Positions 2,106-25,200 of a stretch of 45,139 nucleotides of DNA are shown one piece after another. The position numbers and the translations under genes were made by a program. The notes beneath the pieces are model-generated. The model saw only the letters and a program-made list of their open reading frames with translations. It had not been told where the DNA came from and did not search any database. Source of the DNA: Akkermansiaceae bacterium (GTDB taxonomy: Bacteria; Verrucomicrobiota; Verrucomicrobiia; Verrucomicrobiales; Akkermansiaceae); contig CAIKHZ010000126.1 of the NCBI GenBank assembly GCA_903827375.1, positions 1-45,139 of the forward strand. Direction: 5' to 3'. The stretch's first letter is position 1. Every line of letters starts with the position of its first letter.

Positions 2106-3473
2106 TTATTTGATGGAGTACTTGTCGAGCATATTATAGACCGTGCGTTCGGCGATGCCTAGTTCACGGGCGGTGCGCGCCTTGTTGCTGTCGTTGCGCT
2201 CATACGCCTCGATGAACGCTTGGCGAGCCACTTCATCGAGTGAGCGCGGCGCGGCGATGGAGGGCATTGCATGCGGACTGCCATTGCTGGCGCCTAGCAG
2301 GGGTCTCATATCGCTTTCGCCGAGTTCCTGAGTGTCAGCAAAGGCAGTGGCCCGTTCTAACACATTCTCAAGCTGCCGGATGTTGCCGGGCCATGACTGG
2401 CGTTGGAGCATCCGCGCGGCCGCCGTGGTGAGAGTCCAAGTAGGCTTGCCGCGTTTGCGGGCGATGCGTTCGAGGATGGCCCGGATCAGTTCGGGCAGGT
2501 CCTCGAGGCGCTCGCGCAGGGCGGGCAAGCGCAGGGCGAGCACATCGAGGCGGTAATAGAGGTCCTCGCGGAAGCCGCCGTCGCGCACCCGGGCCAACAA
2601 ATCCATGTTGGTCGCGGCAATGATCCGGGCATCCGTGCGCAATATCCGGTTGCCTCCCACGCGGAAAAACTCCTGATTTTGTAGGACGGTGAGGAGTTTT
2701 GGTTGGAGTTCGCCGGGCAGGTCGCCGATTTCATCGAGGAAAATGGTCCCCTTGCTTGCCTGTTCGAAGCGCCCCTCCCTGAGAGTGGTGGCGCCGGTGA
2801 AGGCACCCCGTTCGTGCCCGAACAATTCGCTTTCTAGCAACTCGCGCGGCAAGGCTGGGCAACTCACCGGGATGAAAGGTTCGGCGGCTCGCGGGCTGAG
2901 GCGGTGGATTTCGCGTGCTATCAGGGTTTTGCCAGTGCCACTTTCACCTGTTAGAAGGAGGGTAATGTCCAATTGCGCCGCCTTGATCATGCGCTGGTAC
3001 AATTCACGCATACTCTGGCTGCGGGCATGCTTGAGCCCATCCACTCCACACAGCGGCTCGGAGCAGGCATCACGCGCCTCAGCGCTGGATGCCTGCTGTC
3101 GCAAGCGGCATGCCTCCTGAATCACACTGAAGAGGCGCTCCAATTCAAAGGGCTTGGTCAGGTAGTCATCAGCTCCCGCCCGCAGCGCCCGCACCGCAGT
3201 CTCCGCGTCGTTGTGGCCGGTCAACATGATCACCGGCACATCCGGACGGATCTTGCGCAGACGGTCTAACATCTGTACACCGTCGCCGTCCGGCAACCCG
3301 TGATCGAGCACCACCGCCTTGACGTGGGAAGTAAGCAGGAGACAGCCTTCATCTCCTGTATCGGCCGCCACCGGTTGCCAACCGCGGCTTTTCGCTGCCG
3401 TCATTAGCAGGTTTCGAACGGCTTCGTCGTCATCGACAAGTAAGATGTTGGGCTGATTTTCTGATGCAGACAT
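2106..3473 (-). CDS. Sigma54-dependent response regulator (NtrC family)
   Basis: DNA-binding activator of sigma54 promoters controlled by phosphorylation. Residues 8-120 form a receiver domain with the acidic cluster DDD at 14-16, phospho-acceptor Asp57 (VVLDHGLPDGDG), Thr85 and Lys107. The central AAA+ domain has Walker A GESGTGKT (176-183), the sigma54-contacting GAFTGA loop (223-228) and a Walker B segment IFLDEIGD. The C-terminus carries a Fis-type helix-turn-helix (KARTARELGIAERTVYNML). All key residues are intact, so it should be a working activator. It lies downstream of, and on the same strand as, the duplicated histidine kinase operon, but a terminator-like hairpin and another gene intervene. 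A link to those kinases or to hcp is conjecture. No convincing TGGCAC-N5-TTGC promoter was seen in the window. Confidence 0.93.
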   Translation of the reverse strand: MSASENQPNILLVDDDEAVRNLLMTAAKSRGWQPVAADTGDEGCLLLTSHVKAVVLDHGLPDGDGVQMLDRLRKIRPDVPVIMLTGHNDAETAVRALRAGADDYLTKPFELERLFSVIQEACRLRQQASSAEARDACSEPLCGVDGLKHARSQSMRELYQRMIKAAQLDITLLLTGESGTGKTLIAREIHRLSPRAAEPFIPVSCPALPRELLESELFGHERGAFTGATTLREGRFEQASKGTIFLDEIGDLPGELQPKLLTVLQNQEFFRVGGNRILRTDARIIAATNMDLLARVRDGGFREDLYYRLDVLALRLPALRERLEDLPELIRAILERIARKRGKPTWTLTTAAARMLQRQSWPGNIRQLENVLERATAFADTQELGESDMRPLLGASNGSPHAMPSIAAPRSLDEVARQAFIEAYERNDSNKARTARELGIAERTVYNMLDKYSIK

Positions 3474-3483
3474 AATGGAGGAA

Positions 3484-3501
3484 CCGCCTGTTAACGGGCG
3501 G
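3484..3501. repeat. Inverted repeat in the leader of the sigma54 regulator gene
   Basis: CCGCCT and GGGCGG flank the palindrome GTTAAC (one T-G wobble in the stem), ending about 10 bp before the ATG of the regulator gene. It could be an operator or a leader hairpin. No T-run makes a terminator unlikely. Confidence 0.3.
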
Positions 3502-3577
3502 CAAGACCCTAAGTCTCAACAGCAGCGCAGGCAAGCGACAACATTGCAAAGTTTACTAAGTGAAAGTACTGAAACCT

Positions 3578-4066
3578 TCAAAATTGCACGGAGATGCCAA
3601 TATTCTGGCGCTGCCCAACATCACGAGTTTTGCGCCACTTACTTACGCTGGCGAGCCATCCGGCATGGATTGCCCAGATTTGCAGAACCGCCACCGGCAG
3701 GCCCGGCAGGGAGATCCACAGCCAATTCCCGGGCAAGTAATCCATTTCAAACAGCCAAATGACCGCCAAGGACACCAGTCCCTGCAAGACGGCGGTGACA
3801 AACCACGAGGATTTGCCGCCCTTGTGGCAGCGCAGGCTACTAAAGTAACTCAAGCTCATTGCGCCGAGCAGCACACCGATCCCGCGCAACCACAGCAACC
3901 CTTGGTCGGAAGGCGGCTTCAGCAACAAAATTTTCACGAGAAACTCTGGAAACACCACTAGCAACACGCATAACAGCGCGTTCGCCAGCCCCATGAAAGT
4001 GGCCCAAAATTCAACTAATTTGACCTTTTGTCGGATACGCCGCTCATTTTTTTCGTGGAAACCCAT
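3578..4066 (-). CDS. Small integral membrane protein of unknown function
   Basis: I do not recognise a family. The ATG at 4066 gives 162 residues beginning MGFHEKNERRIRQKVK; an upstream in-frame TTG at 4120 would add 18 residues but is less likely. A basic N-terminal segment is followed by about four hydrophobic stretches: FWATFMGLANALLCVLLVVF, then GLLWLRGIGVLLGAMSLSYF, then FVTAVLQGLVSLAVIWLF and LWISLPGLPVAVLQIWAIH. This indicates a four-helix inner-membrane protein. It lies between a terminator-like hairpin upstream (end of the kinase operon) and the sigma54 regulator gene, so it is probably transcribed on its own or with the regulator. Confidence 0.7.
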   Translation of the reverse strand: MGFHEKNERRIRQKVKLVEFWATFMGLANALLCVLLVVFPEFLVKILLLKPPSDQGLLWLRGIGVLLGAMSLSYFSSLRCHKGGKSSWFVTAVLQGLVSLAVIWLFEMDYLPGNWLWISLPGLPVAVLQIWAIHAGWLASVSKWRKTRDVGQRQNIGISVQF

Positions 4067-4128
4067 AGCAGAAACGTTGGTTTGTTCATTAGTGGCAGAA
4101 TCCGTGCCAAATTTCAACAATTCGCAAA

Positions 4129-4149
4129 ATCCCTTGGTATCAAAGGGAT
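4129..4149 (-). terminator. Terminator-like hairpin after the kinase operon
   Basis: Read on the minus strand, ATCCCTT pairs perfectly with AAGGGAT around a 7-nt loop, and the 3' arm runs into a short T-run (ATTTTG). It lies about 100 bp beyond the last stop codon of the kinase operon and before the ATG of the membrane protein gene, which suits an operon end. The T-run is short, so termination may be partial. Confidence 0.5.
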
Positions 4150-4249
4150 GCCGCAGATTTGCTCCGGGTCAAGTCGAGCCGTTAGACCTGCAAACCATTC
4201 AGGCCCCTGTCAGTTTTTCAGGGCTTGGTTCTGAGGCGTAAACTGAGAC

Positions 4250-5371
4250 TTATGGAGCGACGCTCGGCAATTGGCACCAGAACGTGCTTCCCGAGCCCGG
4301 TTCACTGGCCACTCCGATGCTGCCGTTTTGGGCTTCAGTGGCCAATTTGCAAAATGCCAGGCCCAATCCGGTGGAAGCACAGGTTTTGCCGAATGGCTGG
4401 TGAAGCACGGAGAATTTATCGAATATGAGTGACTGATCATCTGCGGCGATACCCGGCCCGTGGTCACGCACCCAGAGGCGAACGCCACCACCAGGGACGG
4501 GAGCGGCACCGAGTTCGATTGGGCCGCTGTTTGGGGCGTACTTGATGGCGTTGGTGAGCAGATTGGCGATGATTCGAACGGTTAGATTCACATCACAGAA
4601 CAATGGCGGACAAGCCTCGTCGATTCGTTCACAGATGGACTGCGAGCTGGCTGGATCGAGCACCTGTGCATGCGCGCCTCGAAAAACATCGTCCACCGAA
4701 ACCACCGCCAAATGCAGTGAAATGCTGGTGTTTTCAATGCGGCTCAAATCCACCACGGCAGAGACCATTTGGCTGAGCACACGCACTCCGCGACTGGCGG
4801 CTCGCAGGCTTTCGTTCGCCCCGCCCAAGGATTGATCGGGGCTGCTGCCGCTGAGGATTTGCAAATGACCGTCGATCACCTGCAAGGGGCTGCGCATGTC
4901 ATGCACCAGCATGTGGGTGAGTAGGTCCCGGTGGCGCTCCAACTGGAGGAGCCGGGCATGCTCGGCAGCAAGCTGGAGGTAAGCGCCGCGCAGGGCGACG
5001 TGGGTGCGCACCCGGGCCAGCACCTCGGGTTTGCGGAAGGGCTTGGCAATGTAATCGACGCCGCCGCATTCCAAGCCCGCCGCGATATCCTCTGCGGCCG
5101 ACAGCGCACTGATGAAAAGAATCGGGATATCCCGCAGGCCATCGTCCGCCTTGAAGCGGCGGCATACCTCGTGGCCGTCCAGGCCCGGCATGCGCACATC
5201 TAGCAACACAAGATCCGGCGCTTGTTGGCGGGCGGCTGCCAGCGCGAGTTCGCCGCAGGGAAAGGCCGACACCAGATAGCCCGCTTGGGTTAGGAGCGCT
5301 TCGAGAACATTCAAGTTCTCCGGCTCGTCATCCACAATCATGATCCACGCCGCTGGGGCCTTTTCGTTCAT
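4250..5371 (-). CDS. Receiver-histidine kinase hybrid (second cassette)
   Basis: Soluble two-component protein of 373 residues. An N-terminal receiver domain (about 10-125; acidic pair at 14-15, Asp58 in LLDVRMPGLDG, Lys110 in IAKPF) is followed by a coiled linker and a HisKA domain with His157 in LVHDMRSP. The HATPase domain has an N-box (IIANLLTNAIKYAP), G1 (DHGPGIA), an F-box-like IFDKF and G2 (STGLGLAF). It should be catalytically competent. Its start overlaps the stop of the large upstream kinase by ATGA, implying translational coupling. It is a paralogue of the gene at 8829-10010: the receiver domains share a long run of sequence (DDEPENLNVLE and PGxDGxEVCRRFKAD). Having the receiver first means kinase output could be controlled by phosphate from its partner. 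Confidence 0.92.
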   Translation of the reverse strand: MNEKAPAAWIMIVDDEPENLNVLEALLTQAGYLVSAFPCGELALAAARQQAPDLVLLDVRMPGLDGHEVCRRFKADDGLRDIPILFISALSAAEDIAAGLECGGVDYIAKPFRKPEVLARVRTHVALRGAYLQLAAEHARLLQLERHRDLLTHMLVHDMRSPLQVIDGHLQILSGSSPDQSLGGANESLRAASRGVRVLSQMVSAVVDLSRIENTSISLHLAVVSVDDVFRGAHAQVLDPASSQSICERIDEACPPLFCDVNLTVRIIANLLTNAIKYAPNSGPIELGAAPVPGGGVRLWVRDHGPGIAADDQSLIFDKFSVLHQPFGKTCASTGLGLAFCKLATEAQNGSIGVASEPGSGSTFWCQLPSVAP

Positions 5372-8300
5372 AGGTTATTTCCTTTCACATCGTCAAGCAA
5401 GGCACCCAAGCGCTCATAGGCGTAGGCGTTGACCAGTCCACTGAGTTGTGCCGCAAGCGCCGGTTGGGTAGCGGTCAATTCTGCGAGCCACTCGCGCAAG
5501 CGCCGGATATCGCCGCGGCGGAGCGCCACGGCGAGCGAGTGGCGCAGCTCCGCAGGCAAAGATGCCAGCGAGATGACGTCGCTGGGAGCGGTGGCAGTGG
5601 CCACCTGATGATAGACGTAGCGCACGCCGGTGAGTCGGCCGATTTCCGCCAACAGATCTTCCCGCCACACGGGCTTGGAGATAAAGCCGTCCACCCCGGC
5701 GGCAAGCGCCTGTGCCCGGTCTTCGGCCGCGCCGGCGGCCGTTACCATCAGCACCCGCAGTGAGCCACCACCTGGCAACTCGCGCAAATGGCCAAGCGTC
5801 TCATAGCCGTCCATCCCAGGCATCTGCCGGTCCAGCAACACCAAATCCGTGCCGCAGCCCTCCTCGAACCGCTGCAAGGCGTGTGCGCCGCTCGCCACCA
5901 CTTCGACAGCAAACCCCGCTGCCACAAGCATTTCAACGAGCATGGCGCGGTTTTCAGGGTCGTCGTCCACCACCAAGATGCGGCACTCGGGCTGTTGCGG
6001 AGCGAGCTCCAGCACCTTGGACCGATGGTGGGATTCGCTATCGTGGCTGGCATCCCGCAAGCCAAAGGTGACCCGGAAGCAGCTCTCGCCTCCAAGCCGG
6101 CTGGTCACGGTGACATCCCCACCGAGCGCCCGTGCAAAGCGGCGGCTCAAGGGCAGACCCAGGCCGGTGCCTTTACCGCTGCGGCGGCCGTCTTCCGCCT
6201 GCTCAAAAACCTCGAAGATGCGTTCCAAGTCGGCTTCCTCGATCCCACAACCACTGTCCTCGACGTCCACCGCAACGAGCGGTGTGCCGGACACGGCCTC
6301 AGCCACCACAGACGCCGCCATCCGCACGCTGCCTTTGGGGGTGAATTTGAATGCATTGCCCACGAGATTGACGAGAATTTGGCGGATTTTGCCTTGGTCG
6401 CTGTGGATAAATCGAGGGACGTTGGGGCTGAGTTCCAGCATCAGGTCAGGTGCCCCGACTAGGCTGGCAAACATCAAGCGCACGTCCTCCAGGACTCGAT
6501 AGAAATCAAAATCCTCCGGCTTGAGCGTCAGCGGTTGGGAATCACTGCGCACCAATTCAAGCAAATCGGTGACCAAGGTGAGCAGGTGTTCGCCGCTGCG
6601 GTTGATGGCGCTGAGGCGTCCACTTTTCGCGCAACTCCGACAATCCAGTTCCATGATCTGGGAATAACCGAGGATGGCGTTGAGAGGGGTGCGGATTTCA
6701 TGCGACATGTTGGCCAGGAACAAGCTCTTGGCGGCCACCGCCGCCTGTGCCGCGACGCTGGCATCGGTCAGACGCAGCTGCAGTTCTCGGGCTTCACTTT
6801 CCATCCGACGGCGGGCTTCAAAGTTGGCATAGAGTTGCGCCAGCACACCTAGCAACGCCTCTTCTTCCGCCGTCCATTTCCCCTTGCTCTCCAGATTTTC
6901 AAAACTCATGAATCCCCAACAGTCACCGTCATGCATCAGCGGTTGGCTCACCAGCGAGCAAATCCCCCGCGCTTTGAGTCTCTGGCGAAGCAGGCTGGCG
7001 GCCGGCAAGCTATCCGCATCGGCAGTGCTCACCAACTCGCCACGCCGGTGTCCCTCAGTCGCGTCGGAGATTTGGTCGATGGCCACCGCCTGCGAATTGC
7101 CAATGGTCGATGCCACACCCGGAGCACACCACTCATGAGTGTTAGAAAACGTCCCGGCATCAAAATCGTAGGAGAACAACTTGGCGCGATCCACGCCGAT
7201 GAGTCGTCCCATCAATGCCAGCGACTCGTTGATGGCAGCGTCCTGGGCCTCGAGCGGCACGTTGACAAACTTGGTGGCGAGACGGAGCAATTCACGTTGG
7301 ATGACCGAAAGTCTGGCAAACTCGATCTCCACCTGTCTGCGCGCCGAAATGTCCTTGAGCGTGCCAATCATGCGCTCCGCTTGGTCGGCCCCATCGCGAG
7401 TCACCACACAGCCTCGATCCAGCACCCATTTCCATGAGCCATCCTTGCACCTCATCCGATACTCACAGACGTAGGCAACACTTGGATCGGCAAGGTGCGC
7501 GTTCAATTGTTCCAACACCCCTGGCTTGTCGTCGGGATGAACCCGCGTGTTCCACTCTTCCAACCCCTCGCCAAGCTCGTTTTCGGCATACCCGAGCAGC
7601 CGCTTCCAACTCTTGGTGTAAACCACTTTGCCAGCGCCCATGTTCCAATCCCAGACACCGTCGCCAGCGCCTTCGAGGGCATATTTCCAGCGCTCCTCGC
7701 TCTGGCTCAAATCCTTGGTCAGACGCCGGGCCAAAACTTCGACTTTGCCCCGGGTACTGTACAACGAGTGCACCAAGCCAGCCAAAAGCAGGCTGCTGAG
7801 CACGCCTCCGCAACCCACCAACCAAGCCTTGCTGTAGTCCGTTCCACCGCCTGGTCCGGTGGATCTAACAAAGCTCAGCAGCCAGTCGTGACCTGCTGAT
7901 CTAACCGACACCTTGCTGCACATGAGAGTGGCAGCAGCGGGCAGCTTGCTACTGCCCGGCGTGCTGTCGTAGAGCAAGGCGGCGGGAGTGGCTTCGGTGC
8001 CATCGAAGATTTTCAGATGGATTTGGCGTGCATCCTTCGATTCGCGGCGACCCAAAACCCCGTGCATCAGGTCATTCATCCGGTACGGGCTGTAAACCCA
8101 GCCCATGATGGCAGCGCGGCGCTCGGCGAGCGTGGCTCGGGCTTCACCCATCCGATAGACTGGGGCGTACATCAGGGTGCCGGTCTGCACGTCTTGGCCA
8201 TCCTCTTGGACCAGCATGACTTTGCCGGAGAGGACGGTGGCGTCCTCATCGCGGGCTTGTTCCATGGCGGCGCGGCGCACGGGTTCTGCGAGCATGTCGT

Positions 8301-8763
8301 AGCCGAAGGCACGCAGGTTGCGTCCGGAGAAGGGTTCGAGGAAAACGATGGACGAATAGACATCGCGCTCGCCCTCCGGCCAGATCCGGTACTCAGAAAA
8401 CCCCTCGTCACGGATTTCGCGCAGGTGAGCGGCTAGTTGCTCGCGCGGCACCAACTTGGCAAATCCAATCCCCTGAATGCCCGGCAATGTCTGATCCACT
8501 TTCTGGCGCTTCGCAAATTCATGCCACTCCTCGCGGTCCACCTCGTCCCGATGGGCAAAAAATCCCGCACCGCTGCGAAGGATTTGTTCGTGAGCGTGAA
8601 GGCGCTCTTCGACCCTCGCTCGCAGGGCCTCACAGGCAAACTTGAAATCCTGCTCTGCCTCTTCGTCCAGCACAGCCATCATGAGATCGCAGGCCAGACC
8701 CGTGAAGCATAGGCCGAACCCGAGCAAGAGCCATGCCTGCCATGAGCCGACGCGCCGAAACAT
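5368..8763 (-). CDS. Membrane hybrid histidine kinase with CHASE sensor
   Basis: Large sensor of 1131 residues from the ATG at 8763 (an in-frame TTG at 8808 would add 15). A first membrane helix (about 8-28) and a second (about 312-335) bracket an extracytoplasmic CHASE-type domain (about 60-270, with FFAHRDEVDREEW and PGIQGIGFAKLVPR). Then follow a PAS/PAC module (about 365-480), a GAF domain (about 490-655, with NTHEWCAPGV), HisKA with His688 in MSHEIRTPLNAIL, HATPase (NLVGNAFKFTP, DSGCGIE, GTGLGLPLS) and a receiver with Asp978 (LLDRQMPGMDG). The last 75 residues form a small helical module without a histidine, so it is not an HPt domain. It is the second gene in a duplicated cassette and a paralogue of the kinase at 10007-13189 from the GAF domain onward. 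Confidence 0.93.
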   Translation of the reverse strand: MFRRVGSWQAWLLLGFGLCFTGLACDLMMAVLDEEAEQDFKFACEALRARVEERLHAHEQILRSGAGFFAHRDEVDREEWHEFAKRQKVDQTLPGIQGIGFAKLVPREQLAAHLREIRDEGFSEYRIWPEGERDVYSSIVFLEPFSGRNLRAFGYDMLAEPVRRAAMEQARDEDATVLSGKVMLVQEDGQDVQTGTLMYAPVYRMGEARATLAERRAAIMGWVYSPYRMNDLMHGVLGRRESKDARQIHLKIFDGTEATPAALLYDSTPGSSKLPAAATLMCSKVSVRSAGHDWLLSFVRSTGPGGGTDYSKAWLVGCGGVLSSLLLAGLVHSLYSTRGKVEVLARRLTKDLSQSEERWKYALEGAGDGVWDWNMGAGKVVYTKSWKRLLGYAENELGEGLEEWNTRVHPDDKPGVLEQLNAHLADPSVAYVCEYRMRCKDGSWKWVLDRGCVVTRDGADQAERMIGTLKDISARRQVEIEFARLSVIQRELLRLATKFVNVPLEAQDAAINESLALMGRLIGVDRAKLFSYDFDAGTFSNTHEWCAPGVASTIGNSQAVAIDQISDATEGHRRGELVSTADADSLPAASLLRQRLKARGICSLVSQPLMHDGDCWGFMSFENLESKGKWTAEEEALLGVLAQLYANFEARRRMESEARELQLRLTDASVAAQAAVAAKSLFLANMSHEIRTPLNAILGYSQIMELDCRSCAKSGRLSAINRSGEHLLTLVTDLLELVRSDSQPLTLKPEDFDFYRVLEDVRLMFASLVGAPDLMLELSPNVPRFIHSDQGKIRQILVNLVGNAFKFTPKGSVRMAASVVAEAVSGTPLVAVDVEDSGCGIEEADLERIFEVFEQAEDGRRSGKGTGLGLPLSRRFARALGGDVTVTSRLGGESCFRVTFGLRDASHDSESHHRSKVLELAPQQPECRILVVDDDPENRAMLVEMLVAAGFAVEVVASGAHALQRFEEGCGTDLVLLDRQMPGMDGYETLGHLRELPGGGSLRVLMVTAAGAAEDRAQALAAGVDGFISKPVWREDLLAEIGRLTGVRYVYHQVATATAPSDVISLASLPAELRHSLAVALRRGDIRRLREWLAELTATQPALAAQLSGLVNAYAYERLGALLDDVKGNNL

Positions 8764-8828
8764 GCGGCGGCGGATGCGAGTGGCAACTTGACTCTGTGGC
8801 GGATTCAAAGACTTCAGGGGCCTGGATT

Positions 8829-10010
8829 CTAACTAGAAAACTCAGTTGTGGAGGTGCTGGCGGGTGACTGCGCGCCGTCGATGGGAAAAGAAATCTCGAC
8901 GACCACACCTCGCTCGGCACCGTTGCGAACCGAGACATGTCCTTTGAAAAGCCGGATGATTCGACTTGCCAAAGCCGCCCCCAATCCAAAGTCCCCGCCG
9001 CATTTCAACAGCATACGCTGGCCGCCAACCTCGAAAAACGTCGAAATAGCCTCATCCGACAAGGGTTGGCCATGGGTGATGATGGCGATGTGTGCCTGAC
9101 CAGCGCTCACACAGGTTTCCAATGTGATGAGTTGTCCGGTCTCCACGCATTGCGAGGCGGTGAGCAGCAAGTCGGTGAAAGCCCGGTTGAGCAACTCCAA
9201 ATCCCCGACCACCGTCACGTTCTCCACCGCCGTCAGAACCGCCTGCACCTTGCTGCCGCCCACCAACCCCCCATTCATGTCCAGGGCGATTCGCAGCACC
9301 TGTGCCAATCGCAGCGAGCTCGCCGCAAAGTCTGCCGCCTCCACGTCAATCCGCGCCAGCGTCAGCGCATCGTCCATGAGCTTTTCGATCCGCAGCAGAG
9401 ATTCATCGTAATCGGTCCGCATGGCATGCTGCTCGGACTCAGGCGGCAAATCCATGAAAAGTAGCTCGGTAATTCCTATCAAACCATTGAGAGGGGTGCG
9501 CATTTCATGGGACAACACACTGAGCCACTGGCTCTTGGCATCGTCCCAGATGTGCAAGCGCCGATGCGCTTCGGCGAGTTCACGCACCCGCCGCTCAACC
9601 AGTTCTTCAAGGTGCAGTTGATGGCGGCGCAACCGCAAATGAGTTCCCACCCGGGCCAGCACCTCCACTTCAGCAAACGGCTTGAGCACGTAATCCACTC
9701 CCCCAACTTCAAAGGCTTGCACTTTCTCGGTGATTCTGGACTGGGCACTTAAAAATATAACCGGTATATCACACAGCCGCTCATCCGCCTTGAATCGCCG
9801 ACATACTTCGTAGCCATCCATCCCGGGCATCCGTATGTCTAGCAAAATTAAATCGGGCAGCTCATAACGCAGCGCTGCAAGAGCCATCTCGCCACTCCGA
9901 AACGCCGACACCCGATAGCCCACCAAGGTCAATAAGGATTCTAACACATTTAAATTCTCCGGCTCATCATCGATGATCATGATGGTCGCCTCGCTGCAAT
10001 CAATTTTCAT
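8829..10010 (-). CDS. Receiver-histidine kinase hybrid with degenerate ATPase domain (first cassette)
   Basis: Soluble protein of 393 residues, paralogous to the gene at 4250-5371. The receiver domain is complete (acidic pair 14-15, Asp58 in LLDIRMPGMDG, Lys110 in LKPF), and a HisKA domain with His168 in LSHEMRTPLNGL follows a helical linker. The ATP-binding domain looks damaged. The N-box position reads NRAFTDLLLTASQC without the usual second Asn. The G1 box DxGxG is replaced by THGQPLSD. Only a G2-like DFGLGAALAS remains. ATP binding is therefore doubtful; the protein could act as an acceptor, scaffold or regulatory subunit in a heterodimer. The ATG at 10010 overlaps the stop of the upstream kinase (ATGA). 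A short gap follows before the second cassette. Confidence 0.9.
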   Translation of the reverse strand: MKIDCSEATIMIIDDEPENLNVLESLLTLVGYRVSAFRSGEMALAALRYELPDLILLDIRMPGMDGYEVCRRFKADERLCDIPVIFLSAQSRITEKVQAFEVGGVDYVLKPFAEVEVLARVGTHLRLRRHQLHLEELVERRVRELAEAHRRLHIWDDAKSQWLSVLSHEMRTPLNGLIGITELLFMDLPPESEQHAMRTDYDESLLRIEKLMDDALTLARIDVEAADFAASSLRLAQVLRIALDMNGGLVGGSKVQAVLTAVENVTVVGDLELLNRAFTDLLLTASQCVETGQLITLETCVSAGQAHIAIITHGQPLSDEAISTFFEVGGQRMLLKCGGDFGLGAALASRIIRLFKGHVSVRNGAERGVVVEISFPIDGAQSPASTSTTEFSS

Positions 10011-13000
10011 AAGGTATCTTCAATTCTCTTTATTGGATCTAACAAATCGCTGAGGCGCTCATAGGCATAGGCATTGACCAGCACGCTCATCCGGGCCGCC
10101 AGCCCGGGGTACTCGGGGGCCAGGGTGGCAAGGAGGTGGCGCAGCTGGCGGATGTCGCCGCGGCGCAGTGCCTCGATGAGCGCTTGGCGTTGGGCGTCGG
10201 CCAGGCAGGTAAAGGCGGCGGCATCGAGCTGAGCGGGTTGCTGGGTGGTGACAGGGGCTTCATACAGGTACTTGACGCCTGCGGCACGGGCAATTTCGGC
10301 CAGGAGTTGCTCGCGGCGAAGCGGCTTGGCCACATATCCGTCAGCCCCGGCAGCCAGCGCCAATTGCTTCTCATTGGCCGAGCCCGAGGCAGTGACCACC
10401 AGCACTGCAAGGTCGCGCCCGCCGGGCAACTTCCGCAGGCGATCGATGGCCTCGTAGCCGTCCATTTCCGGCATTCGTTTATCCATCAATACCAAATGAA
10501 TCTGCGGAGCTTGGCTGAGCCGCTGCAGGGCCAGCGCCGCAGTGGCAGCCTCCTCGACCTCGAAGCCAACCGGGCTGAGCATGCCCACGAGCATGCTGCG
10601 ATTGTCCGGCTCGTCATCGACGACGAGCAAGCGGCAAGGCGGCTCATTGGCGGCCAAGTGGTGGACGCTGCCGCGGCGCAAGTGCTCGTCGGCATCGGCG
10701 CAAGCCTCCCCTGCATGGAACGTCAGCCGGAAACAACTGCCCTCCCCGGGCTGACTGGACACGGTGACATCCCCGCCCAAAGCCCGCGCATATCGGCGGC
10801 TCAGGGGCAGCCCCAAACCGGCACCTTTGCCGGGTTTGCGGCCTTGCTGAACCTGCTCAAACACATCGAAAATTCGCCCCAATTCCGCCGCGGCAATGCC
10901 GCAACCGGTATCCTCGACGTCCACAGCCACCATCACGCCATCCGGCCCGTCAGTGGACAAGAGTCGCGCCACCATCCGCACTCGGCCGTTCGTGGTGAAC
11001 TTGACGGCGTTGCCGACCAGATTGACCAAAATTTGACGCAACTTCCCCTTGTCGGCGTAGATGAACTGGGGCACATCCGGGGCAATGGATGGCTCAAACG
11101 TGAGCCCGCCAGCATCCGGGTGAGCCGCAAAAATGAGCCGGACGTCCTCCATCATTTGATAAAAATCAAAGTCCACCGGTGCCAGGGTGACCGCGCCGGC
11201 ATCGTTGCGGACCAACTCGAGCAAGTCGGAGAGCAATTCCAGAAGGTGGTCGCCGCTGCGGGTGATGGAGCTGAGGCGAGCCCCGGTCACGCAGTGGCGG
11301 CACTCACTTTCCATGATCTGGGCATTGCCCAAAATGGCATTGAGAGGCGTGCGGATTTCATGAGACATGTTGGCCAAAAACAAGCTCTTGGACTGCGCCC
11401 CGGCCTGCGCCGCATCACGGGCATGAATCAAGTTTTCCCTCAGTTGCCCGGCTTGACGCTCGGCGTCACGGCGCGCTTGAAAATTGGCGTAAAGCCCGGC
11501 GAGCACGCGCAGCAGGGCCACCTCTTCGTCGCGCCACCGGCGCTCATGGCGCACCGCGTCAAACCCCACAAACCCGAGGCACGCATCGCCCTGCATCAAT
11601 GGCAGCGTGATGAGCGAACGAATCCCCTGAGCCTCTAGCATCTGCCGCATAAAACCATCGGCCGGGAGCAGCGCCGTGCTCGGAATATGCAGCACCTCGC
11701 CTCGCCCATGCGCATCCACCCAGTCCGGCAAAAGAGCGCTGGGCACCGCTTGGAGGTTGGCTATCTCCGGCGCTATGCCGGGGCCGCACCACTCGTGGGT
11801 GTTGCACATGATTCCGGCTGCATGGTCGTAGGCAAACAAATAAGCGCGATCTGCTGCAATGAGCTGCCCCATGGTCGCCAGCGATTCGTCAATAGCCGCA
11901 TCTTGCCGCACCGTAGGCACGTTGATAAAATCCGTCGCCAAGCGCATCAGCTCGCGCTGAATGACCGAGAGTCGGGCCAACTCGACCTCGACCCGCTTGC
12001 GTTCCGTCACATTGACCATGACGCTCAGCAGATATTGCTGGCCCTGGTTATGGATCACTTCACCCGAAAAGATGCCATCAAGGATCCGGCCGTCCTTGCA
12101 GCGAACTTGCATTTCATAATCCTCCAGGCGGCCGTGGGACTTGAGTTCGTCGGCCCCGGCGTCGTGGCGTTGCACATCGACAAACAAATCGAGTTCGGCA
12201 CCCGTCTTGCCGATCACCTCCTCGCGGGTATATCCGAGGGTTGCCAAAAAGGCGTCGTTGACGTCCACAAAACGCTGCTCAGGCAGTGAACTCACCGCGA
12301 TCATGCCGGGATTGGAGCGGAACAAACGCTCGAAACGTTGCTTGGCTTCCTGCTCCTCACCGAGGTTTTTGCTGACTCCGAAAATGCAGTCCATCCCGTC
12401 CCACTTGCCGAACCATACGCGGGTATCCACCGGCACCAAGCCCCCATCCTTGCATGCCAGCGGCAACGGACAACTGGCGCGTTCGCCTCGGAACATTTCG
12501 CCAAAAATCCCCTCGGCTTCCTGCCGCCTATCCGCCGGATGCACATCCAGGATATGCATGCCTCGCAGTTCCTCTGGCGGGTATCCCAGCAAGCGGGTGA
12601 CAGCCGTGTTAGCAAATAATATCCGGCCCTCGGGAGTCCCCACAAAGACCATGTCGGTGATGGTCTCAAAAAACGCGCGGAAATTCGCCCCGCTTTCGCG
12701 CAGTGCCTCCTCGGCACACTTCTGGGCGGTGATGTCCCAGTTGGTGCCGACCATCCTCAGAGCCCGCCCGCTGGCATCCCGCTCAACCGTGGCAAATCCG
12801 CGGATGTGATGAATGCTGCCGTCAGGCCACAACACCCGGAATTCAATGTCAAATTCCTTGGTCGATTCCAAGGCGAGTTTGATCTCGGCGTCGCCGCGCG
12901 CCCGGTCATCCGGATGCAGCCCGGCCTGCCACGCCTCGTAGGCCCCGCTAAACTGGTCCCGCGTGATGCCGTAGAGCCGAAACATCTGCTCGTCCCATTC

Positions 13001-13189
13001 CAAACGGTTGTTGACCACGTCATAGTCCCAAATACCTACACCTCCGGCCTTCGCCGCCATGGCCAAGCGCTCGCCAACCCTCCGCTGCCCCTCCCCTTCG
13101 CCGCCGCCAACCAGCGCCTGAACCAACCCGCCATCATCACAACTGGCCGTTGCATAGTCGCGCGTTGGGTGATTCATGAGGTGAGGCAT
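10007..13189 (-). CDS. Cytoplasmic hybrid histidine kinase with three PAS domains
   Basis: First gene of the kinase operon, 1060 residues, with no membrane helix, so a cytoplasmic sensor. Three PAS/PAC modules (about 45-155, 165-280, 285-400; for example IWDYDVVNNRLEWDEQMFRLYG and VNVTERKR) precede a GAF domain (about 405-575, NTHEWCGPG). HisKA carries His610 in MSHEIRTPLNAIL, the HATPase has NLVGNAVKFT, DTGCGIA and GAGLGLPLS, and the receiver has Asp903 (LMDKRMPEMDG). The C-terminal 75 residues match those of the CHASE kinase (shared ALRRGDIR and LVNAYAYERL) and lack a histidine. An ATG 12 bases further on (13177) is an alternative start. The upstream region holds a good promoter candidate. 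Confidence 0.93.
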   Translation of the reverse strand: MPHLMNHPTRDYATASCDDGGLVQALVGGGEGEGQRRVGERLAMAAKAGGVGIWDYDVVNNRLEWDEQMFRLYGITRDQFSGAYEAWQAGLHPDDRARGDAEIKLALESTKEFDIEFRVLWPDGSIHHIRGFATVERDASGRALRMVGTNWDITAQKCAEEALRESGANFRAFFETITDMVFVGTPEGRILFANTAVTRLLGYPPEELRGMHILDVHPADRRQEAEGIFGEMFRGERASCPLPLACKDGGLVPVDTRVWFGKWDGMDCIFGVSKNLGEEQEAKQRFERLFRSNPGMIAVSSLPEQRFVDVNDAFLATLGYTREEVIGKTGAELDLFVDVQRHDAGADELKSHGRLEDYEMQVRCKDGRILDGIFSGEVIHNQGQQYLLSVMVNVTERKRVEVELARLSVIQRELMRLATDFINVPTVRQDAAIDESLATMGQLIAADRAYLFAYDHAAGIMCNTHEWCGPGIAPEIANLQAVPSALLPDWVDAHGRGEVLHIPSTALLPADGFMRQMLEAQGIRSLITLPLMQGDACLGFVGFDAVRHERRWRDEEVALLRVLAGLYANFQARRDAERQAGQLRENLIHARDAAQAGAQSKSLFLANMSHEIRTPLNAILGNAQIMESECRHCVTGARLSSITRSGDHLLELLSDLLELVRNDAGAVTLAPVDFDFYQMMEDVRLIFAAHPDAGGLTFEPSIAPDVPQFIYADKGKLRQILVNLVGNAVKFTTNGRVRMVARLLSTDGPDGVMVAVDVEDTGCGIAAAELGRIFDVFEQVQQGRKPGKGAGLGLPLSRRYARALGGDVTVSSQPGEGSCFRLTFHAGEACADADEHLRRGSVHHLAANEPPCRLLVVDDEPDNRSMLVGMLSPVGFEVEEAATAALALQRLSQAPQIHLVLMDKRMPEMDGYEAIDRLRKLPGGRDLAVLVVTASGSANEKQLALAAGADGYVAKPLRREQLLAEIARAAGVKYLYEAPVTTQQPAQLDAAAFTCLADAQRQALIEALRRGDIRQLRHLLATLAPEYPGLAARMSVLVNAYAYERLSDLLDPIKRIEDTL

Positions 13190-13231
13190 GGGGGTGGAGA
13201 AGTAGCTGTCACATTCCGTTAGGCGGAAATC

Positions 13232-13260
13232 AGTATAAACTGCAATTTCACAGCACGCAA
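13232..13260 (-). promoter_or_regulatory. Promoter candidate of the four-gene kinase operon
   Basis: On the minus strand TTGCGT (13260-13255) and TATACT (13237-13232) are exactly 17 bp apart, in an AT-rich stretch. The predicted start point near 13225 gives a leader of about 36 bases before the ATG at 13189. The -10 hexamer differs from TATAAT at one position. This is the best promoter match I found in the window. Confidence 0.55.
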
Positions 13261-13418
13261 TACAAATTCTTGCGTATGCAAACTTTTCAATCGATCACTG
13301 TATATTTTGCATGTACATGAGAACGGTTTCCGGATCGATGGCAAGGGTTGCAAGGCCATGGAGCATCTCTCCCCCACCCTTTTTCAGAGAACCAGATCAC
13401 CCAACCAGGGATGCGATG

Positions 13419-15059
13419 TCATCCGACGAAGCGCTGCACGATGGGCATCCGGCGGCCTATCCCAAATGCCTTGGAGGTGACCCGCAGGCCGGGGGCGGCT
13501 TGGTGGCGTTTCCATTCGTTGAGATCGACGCGGCGCTGGATCCAACGGACGATATGTTCCTCAAAGCCGCGTCCGATGATCTCATCGGTGGAGAGTTGTT
13601 GCTCGACGTACAGCTCGAGGATGGCATCCAACACCTCATAAGGCGGCAGCGTGTCCTGATCCTTCTGGTCGGGCCTCAGCTCGGCACTCGGCGCTTTATC
13701 AATGGTGTTCCATGGGATGATTTCTCGCTCACGGTTGAGCCAGCGCGCCACTTCATAAACCCTCACTTTCGGCAAATCCGAAATGACCGCTAAGCCCCCG
13801 CACATGTCACCGTAAATCGTGCAGTAACCCACCGCCAATTCACTCTTGTTGCCGGTGGTTAGTAACAGCCGCCCATCTTTGTTGGACAGCGCCATCAGCA
13901 ACAAGCCACGGATACGGGCTTGCATGTTTTCCTCGGTGACGTCCTCGGCCCTGCCTGCAAATACCGGCCGCATTGCCGCCTTGACCGCTTCGAAAGCCTC
14001 GCCAATGGGCACCACATCGCAGCCAATGCCAAGGTTGCGCGCCAGCGCCAACGAGTCATCCACGCTTCCTGCCGACGAATACCCGCTAGGCATCGTCAAC
14101 CCGTGAACGGCTTGCGGGCCGAGCGCCTCGGCTGCGATGGCGGCGGTGAGCGCGGAATCAATCCCGCCGCTCAGACCAAGACAAACCGTGGAAAATCCGC
14201 ACTTGGTGACGTAGTCGCGCAGCCCGAGCACCAGCGCTTGATAGAGCTGGGCCGGGGGATTTTCCACCGCAATTCCGGCCATGGCAGGGCCGCCGGTAAA
14301 TGGATCAATCACCCGGCAACTCTCAACAAAACCTGGCAATTCCACCCGGATGTTACCGGCGGCATCGGCCACCAGCGAGTGTCCATCGAACACGAGTTGG
14401 TCATTGCCGCCCACCGAGTTGCAATAAATCACTGGCACTTTTGCCGTGCGGGCCACCCCGCTTAACAACTCCCGGCGCTGCGCCGGCTTGCCAAGGTGAT
14501 AGGGCGACGCACTCAGATTGAGCAACAAATCGATGCCTTGGGCCGTCAATTCCTCGACCGGATCGCGCTCATAGAACGGTCGCTCGAGTGACTCGTCGTT
14601 CCAAATATCCTCACAGATTGTCACGCCGATTCGCCAACCGTTCCACAGCACTGGCTCGGTGTTTTCCCCGGGCTCAAAGTAGCGTCGCTCGTCAAACACA
14701 TCGTACGTCGGCAGCAGTGTCTTCCAAATACGCCGGACGACGCCCCCTCGCTCTAACCATGCCGCCGCATTGCGAAACGGCTTGCCGGGCTGCGCCGGAT
14801 GATGCACGTCAACGTAACCAACCACCAAGGGCACCTCGCCAATTTCTCCGGCAAGATAGTCGAGCGCCTGCAAACAGCGCGGGACAAACTGGGACTTGAA
14901 AACCAAATCCCTGGGAGGATAGCCGGTGAGCGCGAGTTCCGGAGTGAGCACCAACTGGGCACCTCCATCCAGACATGCACGGTAGGCCGCGAGGATGCGC
15001 TTCACATTGGCTGGAAAATCCCCAACCACCGAATTGATTTGTGCTAGACCGATCTTCAT
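13419..15059 (-). CDS. nadE: Glutamine-dependent NAD+ synthetase
   Basis: Last step of NAD biosynthesis: amidation of deamido-NAD with ATP and ammonia from glutamine. From ATG 15059 (MKIGLAQINSVVGDF; open frame further upstream has no family resemblance) the protein has 546 residues. The N-terminal half is a nitrilase-type glutaminase with the triad Glu41 (LTPELALTGYP), Lys113 (WKTLLPTYDVFDE) and Cys149 (VTICEDIW). The C-terminal half is the synthetase with the pyrophosphate-binding loop SGGIDS (297-302) and TTGNKSELAVGYCT. The gene is divergent from a TPR gene, with about 150 bp between the starts, and is followed by the promoter region of the kinase operon. Confidence 0.97.
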   Translation of the reverse strand: MKIGLAQINSVVGDFPANVKRILAAYRACLDGGAQLVLTPELALTGYPPRDLVFKSQFVPRCLQALDYLAGEIGEVPLVVGYVDVHHPAQPGKPFRNAAAWLERGGVVRRIWKTLLPTYDVFDERRYFEPGENTEPVLWNGWRIGVTICEDIWNDESLERPFYERDPVEELTAQGIDLLLNLSASPYHLGKPAQRRELLSGVARTAKVPVIYCNSVGGNDQLVFDGHSLVADAAGNIRVELPGFVESCRVIDPFTGGPAMAGIAVENPPAQLYQALVLGLRDYVTKCGFSTVCLGLSGGIDSALTAAIAAEALGPQAVHGLTMPSGYSSAGSVDDSLALARNLGIGCDVVPIGEAFEAVKAAMRPVFAGRAEDVTEENMQARIRGLLLMALSNKDGRLLLTTGNKSELAVGYCTIYGDMCGGLAVISDLPKVRVYEVARWLNREREIIPWNTIDKAPSAELRPDQKDQDTLPPYEVLDAILELYVEQQLSTDEIIGRGFEEHIVRWIQRRVDLNEWKRHQAAPGLRVTSKAFGIGRRMPIVQRFVG

Positions 15060-22207: not shown

Positions 22208-22285
22208 CTGGCCTCCGCCCCGTATAACCAATCCGTCGCAACACCATGGACTGAATGCGGAGCGCTATCCTCACCTCCTCCAGCG

Positions 22286-25200
22286 ATGAATCCAGACCGA
22301 GCCACTCTCAACTTTCTCAACAGCTTTCCGGTTGAAGCCCGCAAGCGCGGTGAAATTCTCCAAAAAGATGGCGGCGTGACCCAGATTTTCGGCAATCACC
22401 TCTTCATTCAAGGCCGGGTGGAGGACGAGAGCGGCACCCATCGCACCAGTCTGCGTCTGCAAGGCAACCGCTGGTTTGGCTCCTGCACCGCCGAAGACGA
22501 CACCATCTCGGGTGCCTGCCAGTATGCCACCATGATGGAGCGGATGCACCGCGGGGAAGATCTGCCAGAATCGCCAAACGAGTTCGACGACACCCCCATC
22601 CTTGACATCATTGAGGAGAAACTCGATCGCGAACTCGATGACAAGGAGGCGGACTTTGTCACCAAACTCGAAAAACGCTACCGCCGTTACGTCATCGAAG
22701 GCGAGCTCCACGATCACGACATGGTGCGTATCACCCCTCGCTGGGAAATCACCACCTACGAACCCCTTGAGTTGTGGCCCATCCCCCCAGGCGATATCAT
22801 CGAGTTCTGGAACTACATCGCCTACGCTTTCTATAAGAAAAAACTCGCCTATCCAGATTTCATGAACGTGATCACCGACCTCGGTCACGTGCAGAAAAAA
22901 ATGGCGGATTGGGAGCAGGAGCGCGAAGTGGCGTCTTGGTATGAGCGCATCGAAAAAGTCAACGAGCGTCCGCCCCAGGAAGCTCCGCTGACGGTCAAAT
23001 TCCGCTTGGTTGCGACCATCAATGAGGCTCGCCTTGAGGTCAAGGAAGACAAGGCCAACCTGTGGGTTCAGCTCCGCGAGAAGAACGACATTGAGCACTA
23101 CGTGGATCTTCACCATGAAGCGGCTTTGCTGATGGATGCCTCCAGCCAAACCCTGTGGGAACATTTCCTGGCCTTCATGCGCAAATACGGCGACACCACT
23201 CTTGATTTCGACCAGGAAGAGTCCTGTCGCTTCATGAACCGGGTGTTCCGCCAACCCGCGCTCAAGGGCTACATCGTCAACCTCGACGACAAAGAATTCA
23301 AGGTCTCCGAGGAGGCCCTCAGCTGGGTCTGCGAAGACGATCCCTACGATGGTGCCAGTTTCGCCCTCCAACTCGTCACCTGCACCGGCGAAAATGTCTC
23401 CCACTCGGTGCGCCTCCTGCCCGGACGCAAGGAACTCTATCAATCCGATGAAACCGTCTTCCCCGGCCCGCCTCGCTGGCTCGAGGAAACCGACGTGATG
23501 CCCCGCTACCTCATTCCAAAGCGCGTCATCGATTCGCTCGAGGGCGTTGAGTTCCTGCGGAAAATCGGCGCGGCTTTGCCCGAATCCCTCAAAAAACGCG
23601 TGGTCGATCTCGAACTGCGCCCGCGCTTCGAAATGAAACTCGTCGCTGGCCTCACCGCCGCGGAGACCGAACACCTCGTCGTGGACGTCACCGCCATTGA
23701 GACCAAGGGCCGCCGCACCGAACACCTCACCAAGGAAGGCTGGGAACTCGCCGAGCAGCAACCCGTCAAAGGCAAACAACTGCTGCGCTTCGCCCGTGAG
23801 GACCTCTATCCGGTCCCCGCTACCCTGGATAACATGGGCCTTGCCTACGACGAGAAAATCCTCTCCTTCAAATCGCGCATTACCAAGCAGTTCCCCGAGC
23901 GCTTCGCCGAGTGGATCAAGAACATGCCGCCGAGCATCGAGCTGGATATCGACCTGCGCCTCAAATCCATCCTCGCCGACCCCGTCACCGCCGCCGTGCG
24001 CTTCGAGGTCGTCGGCCAGGACATCGACTGGTTCGACCTGCGCATCGTCATCGACGTGCAAGGCGTCAATCTTTCCAAAGCCCAGATCCGCCAACTCGTC
24101 GCCGCCCGCGGCGGCTATGTGCGCATGGAAGACGGCTCGTGGATGCGCCTGGAAATCAAGCTCGACGCCGACCAGCGCGAGGCGGTCACCCGTTTGGGCC
24201 TAGATCCATTTGACTTATCCGGCGAGACCCACCGGATGCATGCCCTGCAACTGGCCGATCCCAAGGCGGCGGAGGTATTCGACCCGAAGGCCTGGAAGCG
24301 CATCAAGGACCGGGCTGGAGATATCAAGCTTGAAATCAATCCGGAAGTGCCCGCCCTGCTCAAGGCCACCCTTCGGCCCTATCAGATCGACGGCTTCAGG
24401 TTCCTCACCTATCTATCCGTTAACAACTTCGGCGGCATCCTCGCCGACGACATGGGCCTCGGCAAAACCATCCAAGCACTGGCCTACCTCATCTGGCTGA
24501 TGGAGGAAAACGAAAAAGCCGGCATCGCCAAGAAGCCCGCTCTGGTCGTCTGTCCCAAATCCGTGTTGGACGTGTGGGCCGGGGAAGCCGAAAAATTCGC
24601 CCCCCATATCCGCGTGAAAATTTTGCGCAGTCGCGATGACATTCAGGTGGATGAGATTCAAAACAACGTGGACATGTTGGTGCTCAACTATGCTCAGTTG
24701 CGCGTTTGTGGCGAGGAACTCAACGGAATCAAATGGCTCACCACCATCCTCGACGAAGGCCAACAAATCAAAAACCCTGACTCGAAAGCTGCCAAGTGCG
24801 CCCGTGAATTGGACTCACAAAACCGCTTGGTGCTCACCGGTACTCCGATTGAAAACCGCCTGATGGATATGTGGTCGCTGATGGCCTTTGCCATGCCCGG
24901 GGTGCTCGGCTCGCGGGCCTACTTCAAAAAGCGCTTTGACAAACGCAAGGACCCGCTCAGCCAGTCGCGGCTCGCCTCGCGCTTGCGTCCCTTCCTGATC
25001 CGGCGCACCAAGCTGCAGGTGGCCCAGGACCTTCCGCCGCGTACCGAAGAGGAAGTTTATTCCAAAATGGAAGGCGTCCAACACGACCTCTACAAAGCCG
25101 AACTCAAACGCATCCAAAAAGCCCTGCTCGGCCTCGACTCCGACGAGTCCGTCAAGAAAAACTCGTTCGCCATCCTTCAAGGTCTCATGCGCCTGCGGCA

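Follow-up and report, generated by a model that had tools for sequence, protein, structure and literature searches.

Organization of the kinase locus

We examined a contig of an Akkermansiaceae bacterium (CAIKHZ010000126.1, assembly GCA_903827375.1), the whole 45,139 nt of which are here called the window, and in it a head-to-tail row of four open reading frames (ORFs) on the minus strand that alternates large hybrid histidine kinases (L1 and L2) with small receiver-first kinases (S1 and S2). One of the small proteins, S1, has kept its acceptor histidine and lost the residues of its ATP site, and it is the main subject here. Related loci and genomes carry three-digit L and G numbers, respectively. 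The row comprises the following features:

10007-13189, minus strand: L1, hybrid histidine kinase with three PAS, GAF, HisKA, HATPase, receiver and a conserved tail (translation, Pfam)
8829-10010, minus strand: S1, ATP-dead receiver-first kinase with receiver, HisKA (His167 kept) and degenerate HATPase (Pfam, motif columns, dN/dS)
9510-9512, minus strand: codon of S1 His167, in the H-box SHEMRTPL (alignment columns)
8880-9203, minus strand: degenerate catalytic and ATP-binding domain of S1, residues 270-377 (Pfam, motif columns, predicted model)
5368-8763 (or from TTG 8808), minus strand: L2, hybrid histidine kinase with CHASE, one PAS, GAF, HisKA, HATPase, receiver and tail (Pfam, ORF list)
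7969-8547, minus strand: CHASE sensor domain of L2 (Pfam CHASE, 6.9e-68; CHASE tree)
4250-5371, minus strand: S2, receiver-controlled kinase of LvrB layout with receiver, HisKA (His157) and HATPase, N, G1 and G2 boxes intact (Pfam, motif columns)

The first-pass annotation had reported these four ORFs, their common strand and an ATGA overlap within each pair, all of which we confirmed: the L1/S1 and L2/S2 junctions each overlap by 4 bp. S1 and L2 do not overlap; the spacer from the S1 stop to the L2 ATG at 8763 is 65 bp long, or 20 bp if L2 starts at the TTG at 8808. Judged from this spacing, a single L1-S1-L2-S2 transcript is plausible. The promoter that had been placed at 13232-13260 was not recovered, as no site there reached the threshold of the promoter scan, which over 3400-13450 returned a single site, at 11903 on the opposite strand, with 3.4 expected by chance.

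S1 proteins have lost the ATP site and kept the histidine

In alignment columns, the acceptor histidine was kept in all 18 S1-type proteins (12 S1 and six distant relatives), while the N-box asparagine and the G1 aspartate were lost in the same 18. All three residues were present in each of 27 comparison proteins, namely ten S2, in which the glycine columns were intact as well (10/10), and 17 Verrucomicrobiota receiver-first kinases from outside the S1, S2 and S3 groups (S3 is described below), which in this respect are unlike S1. The alignment took receiver-first ORFs of 331-469 aa, thereby leaving out L077 and L087, and the G1 box was counted by column; as a search pattern, DxGxG misfires in S1 on the G2-box sequence GDFGLG. 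The Pfam HATPase_c model likewise scored S1 at 24.7 bits, below its curated cut-off of 26.4, and S2 clearly, at 76.7 bits. On the kinase-half tree, the ATP-dead state mapped as one change.

S1 is nevertheless not decaying but under purifying selection, since its ratio of nonsynonymous to synonymous substitution rates (dN/dS) between the window and G028 was 0.080, the lowest of the four genes (L1, 0.088 and 0.188 for two parts; S2, 0.186; L2, 0.223). An HExxT/N motif was present in 16 of the 18 S1-type proteins versus none of the ten S2; the HExxT motif fits phosphatase action. S1 also differs from L1, L2 and S2 in its G+C content (55.9% versus 60.5-61.5%) and in its third-position make-up.

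The Pfam scan of S1 at E <= 0.01, which makes no direct comparison with ChpT or Spo0B, returned only Response_reg, HisKA, HATPase_c and PDE8A_N, and profile searches of solved structures had response regulators and ordinary kinases among their matches. In the predicted S1 model (predicted local distance difference test score, pLDDT, 75; predicted template modelling score 0.54; the S2 model had pLDDT 73.8), the order of strands and helices appears, by reading, to be like that of a Bergerat domain, and the 50 matches listed in the fold comparison all covered the receiver, not the kinase half. Among the matches listed for open-licence PubMed Central papers, an ATP-dead receiver-first kinase family of this kind was absent from titles and abstract openings.

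A further group of three S2-like receiver-first kinases, here S3 (the second copy in G006, and G462 and G464; L030 1688-2806, L052 8815-9888 and L053 9008-10282), had lost the histidine in all three members and kept the asparagine and aspartate in all three, with the G006 copy lying 12 bp after an NtrC-like gene. By these motif columns, S3 represents another type of dead kinase within this system.

S1 and S2 have sister receivers on different kinase halves

The receiver block that the first-pass annotation had seen in both small proteins is well borne out, with 77 of 117 residues identical (66%), and receiver plus linker share 50% over 192 aligned positions. The kinase halves, in contrast, agree at 41 of 233 positions (18%). 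Within their own genome, S1 and S2 are each other's best match, at 38%. From the receiver aspartate to the histidine of the dimerization and histidine phosphotransfer (DHp) domain, S1 is 11 residues longer than S2; for linkers between receiver and DHp, a preference for multiples of seven is described in the accessible part of the LvrB paper (PMC13269768).

Orthologues of S1 and S2 formed two deep groups, both with members in other lineages, and a clade of S1 plus S2 from the window and its nearest relatives was rejected (delta log likelihood 384; approximately unbiased [AU] test, p 0.0002). In a quick tree of kinase halves, with modest supports and built without the ATP-site motif columns, S1 joined the six distant ATP-dead proteins (Shimodaira-Hasegawa-like approximate likelihood ratio [SH-aLRT] 92) and S2 joined ordinary receiver-first kinases; the split between the S1 and S2 sides had a support of 74, with the L1 and L2 kinase halves placed among the S1 relatives (85). 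In a quick receiver tree, in contrast, 11 of 12 S1 receivers grouped with those of S2 and S3 (SH-aLRT 88, or 92 with L016_S1 and G181_S added). Both trees and the column counts omit L082, L084, L085 and one L073 ORF, which have no histidine kinase domain. Related receivers thus sit on different kinase halves, in an arrangement older than the lineage of the window; by this evidence, S1 and S2 are old separate families, not duplicates at the level of L1 and L2. Co-adaptation of the two receivers within a genome gave no useful signal (identity 0.632 within the same genome versus 0.618 between genomes).

Gene order in related genomes

With the own genome included in all genome counts, S1 matched four of 59 related genomes at 1e-40 and 16 loci among GTDB contigs, of which L011-L016 and L019 were taken as S1 orthologues. 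An S1 profile matched 29 of 387 genomes of the phylum at 1e-50, many of these matches being ordinary receiver-first kinases; S2 matched eight of 73 genomes of the genus at 1e-60, six of them with the cassette type; and L matched eight of the 387 genomes at 1e-130. Weak loci (L018, L020-L026) were unused, and each of the pairs L014/L055, L016/L056, L011/G028-C777 and L017/L030 was taken as one contig and entered a single time.

The order L1-S1-L2-S2, small hydrophobic gene, NtrC-like gene is common to the window and G028, at 88-95% identity. G035 also has L1-S1-L2-S2, with an NtrC-like gene about 1.7 kb upstream, while G006 has L1, S1, L2 and S2 probably split across two contigs and G466 has L1-S1-broken L2-S2. 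In G445, short remnants of the L1 receiver-tail and the S1 receiver (L050 13757-13966) stand directly ahead of an intact L2-S2, as though a deletion had removed L1-S1. The broken L2 of G466 (L051 5043-8213) and the L1 of G028 (L011 1643-4824) are each split into two ORFs, which may be real breaks or assembly errors. The synteny that the first-pass annotation had suggested looking for is present in G028 and G035; in other lineages, by contrast, the arrangement has a single large kinase, as L-S1-S2 (L013, L019 and G365) or S2-L-S1 (L015). L-S1 also occurs without an adjoining S2 (L012 and L016), L-S2 without an adjoining S1 (G175 and G181), and S1 without an L match beside it (L014). More distant kinases lie near the cassettes of L013, L019 and G365 as well.

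Of 24 listed junctions in relatives, 21 overlap by exactly 4 bp and one by 40 bp, and two, both S1-L2, are gaps of 20 and 55 bp; outside these, 135 bp lie between L and S1 in G365 and 65 bp between S2 and L in L015. By reading, a hybrid kinase stands directly before a receiver-first kinase at about eleven further Verrucomicrobiota loci.

The large kinases and their sensors

The likeness of L1 and L2 held at both protein and DNA level, as had been claimed, with 377 of 699 residues identical (BLASTP) over the common GAF-HisKA-HATPase-receiver-tail part and 64% identity across 1982 aligned DNA positions. The H-box stretches, which had been called nearly the same, agree at 48 of 56 nt, and a 90-nt stretch around the H-box at 72 positions. 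Third codon positions agree in only 42% of aligned codons, and on this ground we consider the copies old. In the own genome (6.1 Mb, 370 contigs), L1 and L2 are each the best other match of the other; for L1 the identity to L2 is 54%, falling to 32% for its next match across the transmitter. Transmitter motifs are intact in both, and the sensors differ, L1 having a PAS array, with no CHASE match in the Pfam scan, versus the CHASE domain of L2.

By core identity, L1 stands at 61-65% to the single L kinases of other lineages (L012, L013, L015, L019 and G365; 46% for L016), at 63-68% to the L1 of G006, G035 and G466 in its own genus, and at 56% to the L2 of the window. A contig labelled as from a delta proteobacterium (L012) carries near relatives of both L1 (65%) and S1 (67%), pointing either to a mislabelled genome or to transfer. 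Trees neither showed nor rejected a clade of window-type L1 and L2 (AU p 0.343 and 0.238 in two tests) or one of all L1 and L2 of the genus (AU p 0.22). Judging from the sequences, the large kinase may well have been duplicated at this locus.

CHASE and PAS occur together in the single L kinases of L012, L013, L015, G365 and G274, while in the window and in G035 the sensors are divided, L1 having the PAS array and L2 having CHASE and one PAS. The CHASE domains of five L2 formed one clade (100/100). The cores of six L2 as one clade were rejected (AU p 8e-87), a group picked after the tree had been seen, and the L2 core of G035 was sister to the L1 of the same genome (100/100, 74% identity). One duplication followed by conversion of the cores would explain this conflict; alternatively, there may have been separate duplications with exchange of the sensor part.

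Neighbouring genes and a candidate output

Beyond S2, two further minus-strand genes follow:

3578-4120, minus strand: small hydrophobic protein (probably a membrane protein), encoded between S2 and the NtrC-like gene
2106-3473, minus strand: NtrC-like sigma-54 response regulator, candidate output (Pfam; 6/6 cassette genomes of the genus sample)

The NtrC-like protein has a receiver and a sigma-54 interaction domain (Pfam) with GAFTGA present. All NCBIfam equivalogs listed scored below their cut-offs, and we therefore give it no specific regulator name. At >= 67% identity, a cut that we chose ourselves, the gene was found in 6/6 cassette genomes versus 4/67 others in the genus sample (Fisher 1.2e-6, uncorrected for relatedness), some of the matches being partial and at contig ends. 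The small hydrophobic protein matched no Pfam or NCBIfam family at the thresholds applied, and relatives of it were present in L011, L029, L050 and L127. Sigma-54 promoter-like sites in the window with at most one mismatch were no more frequent than expected (4 versus 4.9), and for this reason no regulon is proposed.

A gene for a hybrid-cluster (prismane) protein, Hcp, lies at 435-2081, convergent with the NtrC-like gene and with its end 24 bp away. As a target of the NtrC-like regulator it was dropped, since Hcp was not among the matches listed for the loci of relatives, including the stretch after the NtrC-like gene of G028 (L131). Elsewhere in the window, a 607-aa minus-strand ORF lying almost wholly opposite an SNF2 helicase gene (22271-24094 and 22286-25783) is probably spurious.

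Discussion

The nearest known arrangement is that of Leptospira, in which LvrB becomes a more active autokinase when its receiver is phosphorylated by the hybrid kinase LvrA (accessible text of PMC5863495). According to the accessible part of PMC13269768, LvrB is a protein of 382 aa with receiver (REC), DHp and catalytic and ATP-binding (CA) domains, and the structural prototype of receiver-controlled kinases. As far as these two sources are accessible, LvrA/LvrB resembles the window in pairing an adjoining hybrid kinase with a REC-DHp-CA protein of about 380 aa, with no DNA-binding domain in either, and S2, with Asp58, His157 and an intact CA domain, has the layout of LvrB (Asp56, His161). 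The row of the window thus has a hybrid kinase gene followed by a REC-DHp-CA gene in an operon-like arrangement, as in an Lvr-type dyad, with the intact partner core in S2 and not in S1. It is unlike LvrA/LvrB in having two hybrid kinases, two REC-first partners (one ATP-dead) and a CHASE sensor, and its neighbour is an NtrC-like regulator, while the partner reported for LvrB, in the accessible part of PMC13269768, is LvrC, an anti-sigma factor.

Proteins with a comparable loss are known as well. ChpT has a Bergerat-type domain without autokinase activity (accessible part of PMC3433190), and for PhyT a degenerated ATPase domain is described and Spo0B and ChpT are given as parallel cases (accessible part of PMC5898713). 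As these portions describe them, S1 is like ChpT, Spo0B and PhyT in being derived from a histidine kinase, with a conserved histidine and a CA domain without a usable ATP site; it is unlike them in its N-terminal receiver, in grouping by profile with ordinary HisKA kinases and in standing in an operon-like row with its presumed hybrid kinase.

We favour, at about an even chance, a branched His-Asp module like LvrA/LvrB in which S1 would be an ATP-independent phosphotransfer or phosphatase node like ChpT or PhyT. L and S2 fit the LvrA/LvrB scheme, and S1 fits its receiving part, but the S1 histidine cannot be charged from ATP through the known residues; as phosphate carriers with dead ATP sites are known among proteins derived from histidine kinases, S1 is taken as such a node. 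L1 and L2 would autophosphorylate and, as alternative inputs, hand phosphate to the receivers of S1 and S2, which are alike. Phosphorylation of the S2 receiver would gate autokinase activity, as in LvrB of Leptospira. The DHp histidine of S1 would not be charged from ATP; phosphate would instead be exchanged with the receiver of L, of S1 itself or of the NtrC-like regulator, so that S1, under control of its own receiver, may act as an ATP-independent phosphotransferase like ChpT, Spo0B and PhyT, or as a phosphatase. The output is probably the NtrC-like sigma-54 regulator encoded next to the row. The direction of flow through S1 and the output are the least certain steps. As to history, an ancestral L-S1-S2 operon with one CHASE and PAS kinase would have gained a second kinase copy between S1 and S2, after which the two copies would have divided the sensors.

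Several observations weigh against this reading. Eleven of 12 S1 (and two of the six distant relatives) retain the G2-box GLG, so that weak nucleotide binding by S1 is possible, and S1 matches at 1e-60 are rare, being found in seven of 387 genomes of the phylum. In the trees of L cores, deep branches are weak. Nor is the division of sensors uniform, as the single L kinases of L016, L019, G175 and G181 had no CHASE match (Pfam for G175 and G181) and the L1 of G466 keeps CHASE. As for the output, NtrC-like matches at 1e-140 occurred in 11 of 67 cassette-free genomes, and the gene lies beside or near the cassette in five of six genomes but on another contig in G466. In G444 (71% complete), the NtrC-like and small hydrophobic genes adjoin with no cassette beside them (L127 812-2816), and the pair may therefore predate the cassette.

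S1 might instead act by binding, as an ATP-dead regulator like DivL or RetS, both parallels for such binding, that tunes the kinase/phosphatase balance of L1/L2 or of S2 with its receiver as the input. The loss of ATP-site residues throughout the S1-type proteins agrees with this, as does the HExxT/N motif of most S1-type proteins and no S2, with its fit to phosphatase action, and the accessible part of PMC9491836 describes a pseudokinase form of ChrS that heterodimerizes with HrrS. A pure scaffold, however, would not need the acceptor histidine, which all 18 proteins keep and which the related S3 have lost in all three cases, and we hold this explanation to be rather unlikely. That S1 autophosphorylates after all, binding ATP in some unusual manner, seems a good deal less probable again: the G2-type GLG and the Bergerat-like order of elements read from the predicted model would suit it, but the asparagine and aspartate equivalents are gone from every S1-type protein and HATPase_c scores below its cut-off.

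The remaining explanations concern origin. The first-pass annotation had described a tandem duplication of the two-gene cassette, and a recent duplication in this lineage would account for the same order occurring twice, for the domains in common and for the mutual best matches in the genome. Each gene was not, however, the sister of its counterpart: the window-type S1 and S2 clade was rejected, other lineages have S1 and S2 side by side with one L, and L1 is nearer by identity to single L kinases of those lineages than to L2. The S tree and the one-L loci rule out such an event for the small genes, and as an account of the whole row we give it hardly any credence. The placement nearer to unrelated loci than to the partner copy, which had been named as the result that would count against the duplication, was found in the tree for S1 and S2 and, for L1, only in the identities. 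The layout is real, and by these comparisons cassette duplication is untenable for the small genes and could apply, at most, to the large one, for which the L1 and L2 trees left it neither rejected nor shown. An ancient event in which an L-S pair was duplicated in tandem ahead of the divergence of the lineages, yielding L-S1 and L-S2, with later loss of one L and exchange of the S1 or S2 kinase half, is unlikely in our judgement but less so than a recent one; the receivers of S1 and S2 are sisters, and L-S1 alone and L-S2 alone both occur. Against it, the kinase halves are only 18% identical and fall in different groups, and a clade of the six L2 cores plus both L from the L-S2 pairs was rejected (AU p 4e-5), a rejection weakened by the fact that L1/L2 conversion in G035 alone would break such a clade.

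Of the four-component phosphorelay proposed at the outset, a multi-component relay remains likely, while S1 as an ordinary kinase is ruled out. More broadly, and still more doubtfully than the branched module itself, S1 may represent a phylum-wide family of receiver-gated histidine phosphotransferases (REC, DHp and dead CA) that, together with the active twin S2, which has the same kind of receiver, would distribute what one or two hybrid kinases signal over two branches, one driven by ATP and one independent of it; in the genus, the input would have been duplicated and the sensors divided, and gene conversion would have kept the transmitters similar in one lineage or more. There is nothing special about the duplication as originally described, and it is the conserved ATP-dead S1 family with its active twin that is the part of interest, adding a variant to the dyad of hybrid kinase and receiver-first kinase. 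Active and ATP-dead versions with sister receivers, lying beside the same hybrid kinases, would form a natural pair for testing the role of the kinase half once the receiver is phosphorylated, and the series of operons, from one kinase with all sensors through two kinases with divided sensors to broken copies, would illustrate the division of sensors after duplication in bacterial signalling.

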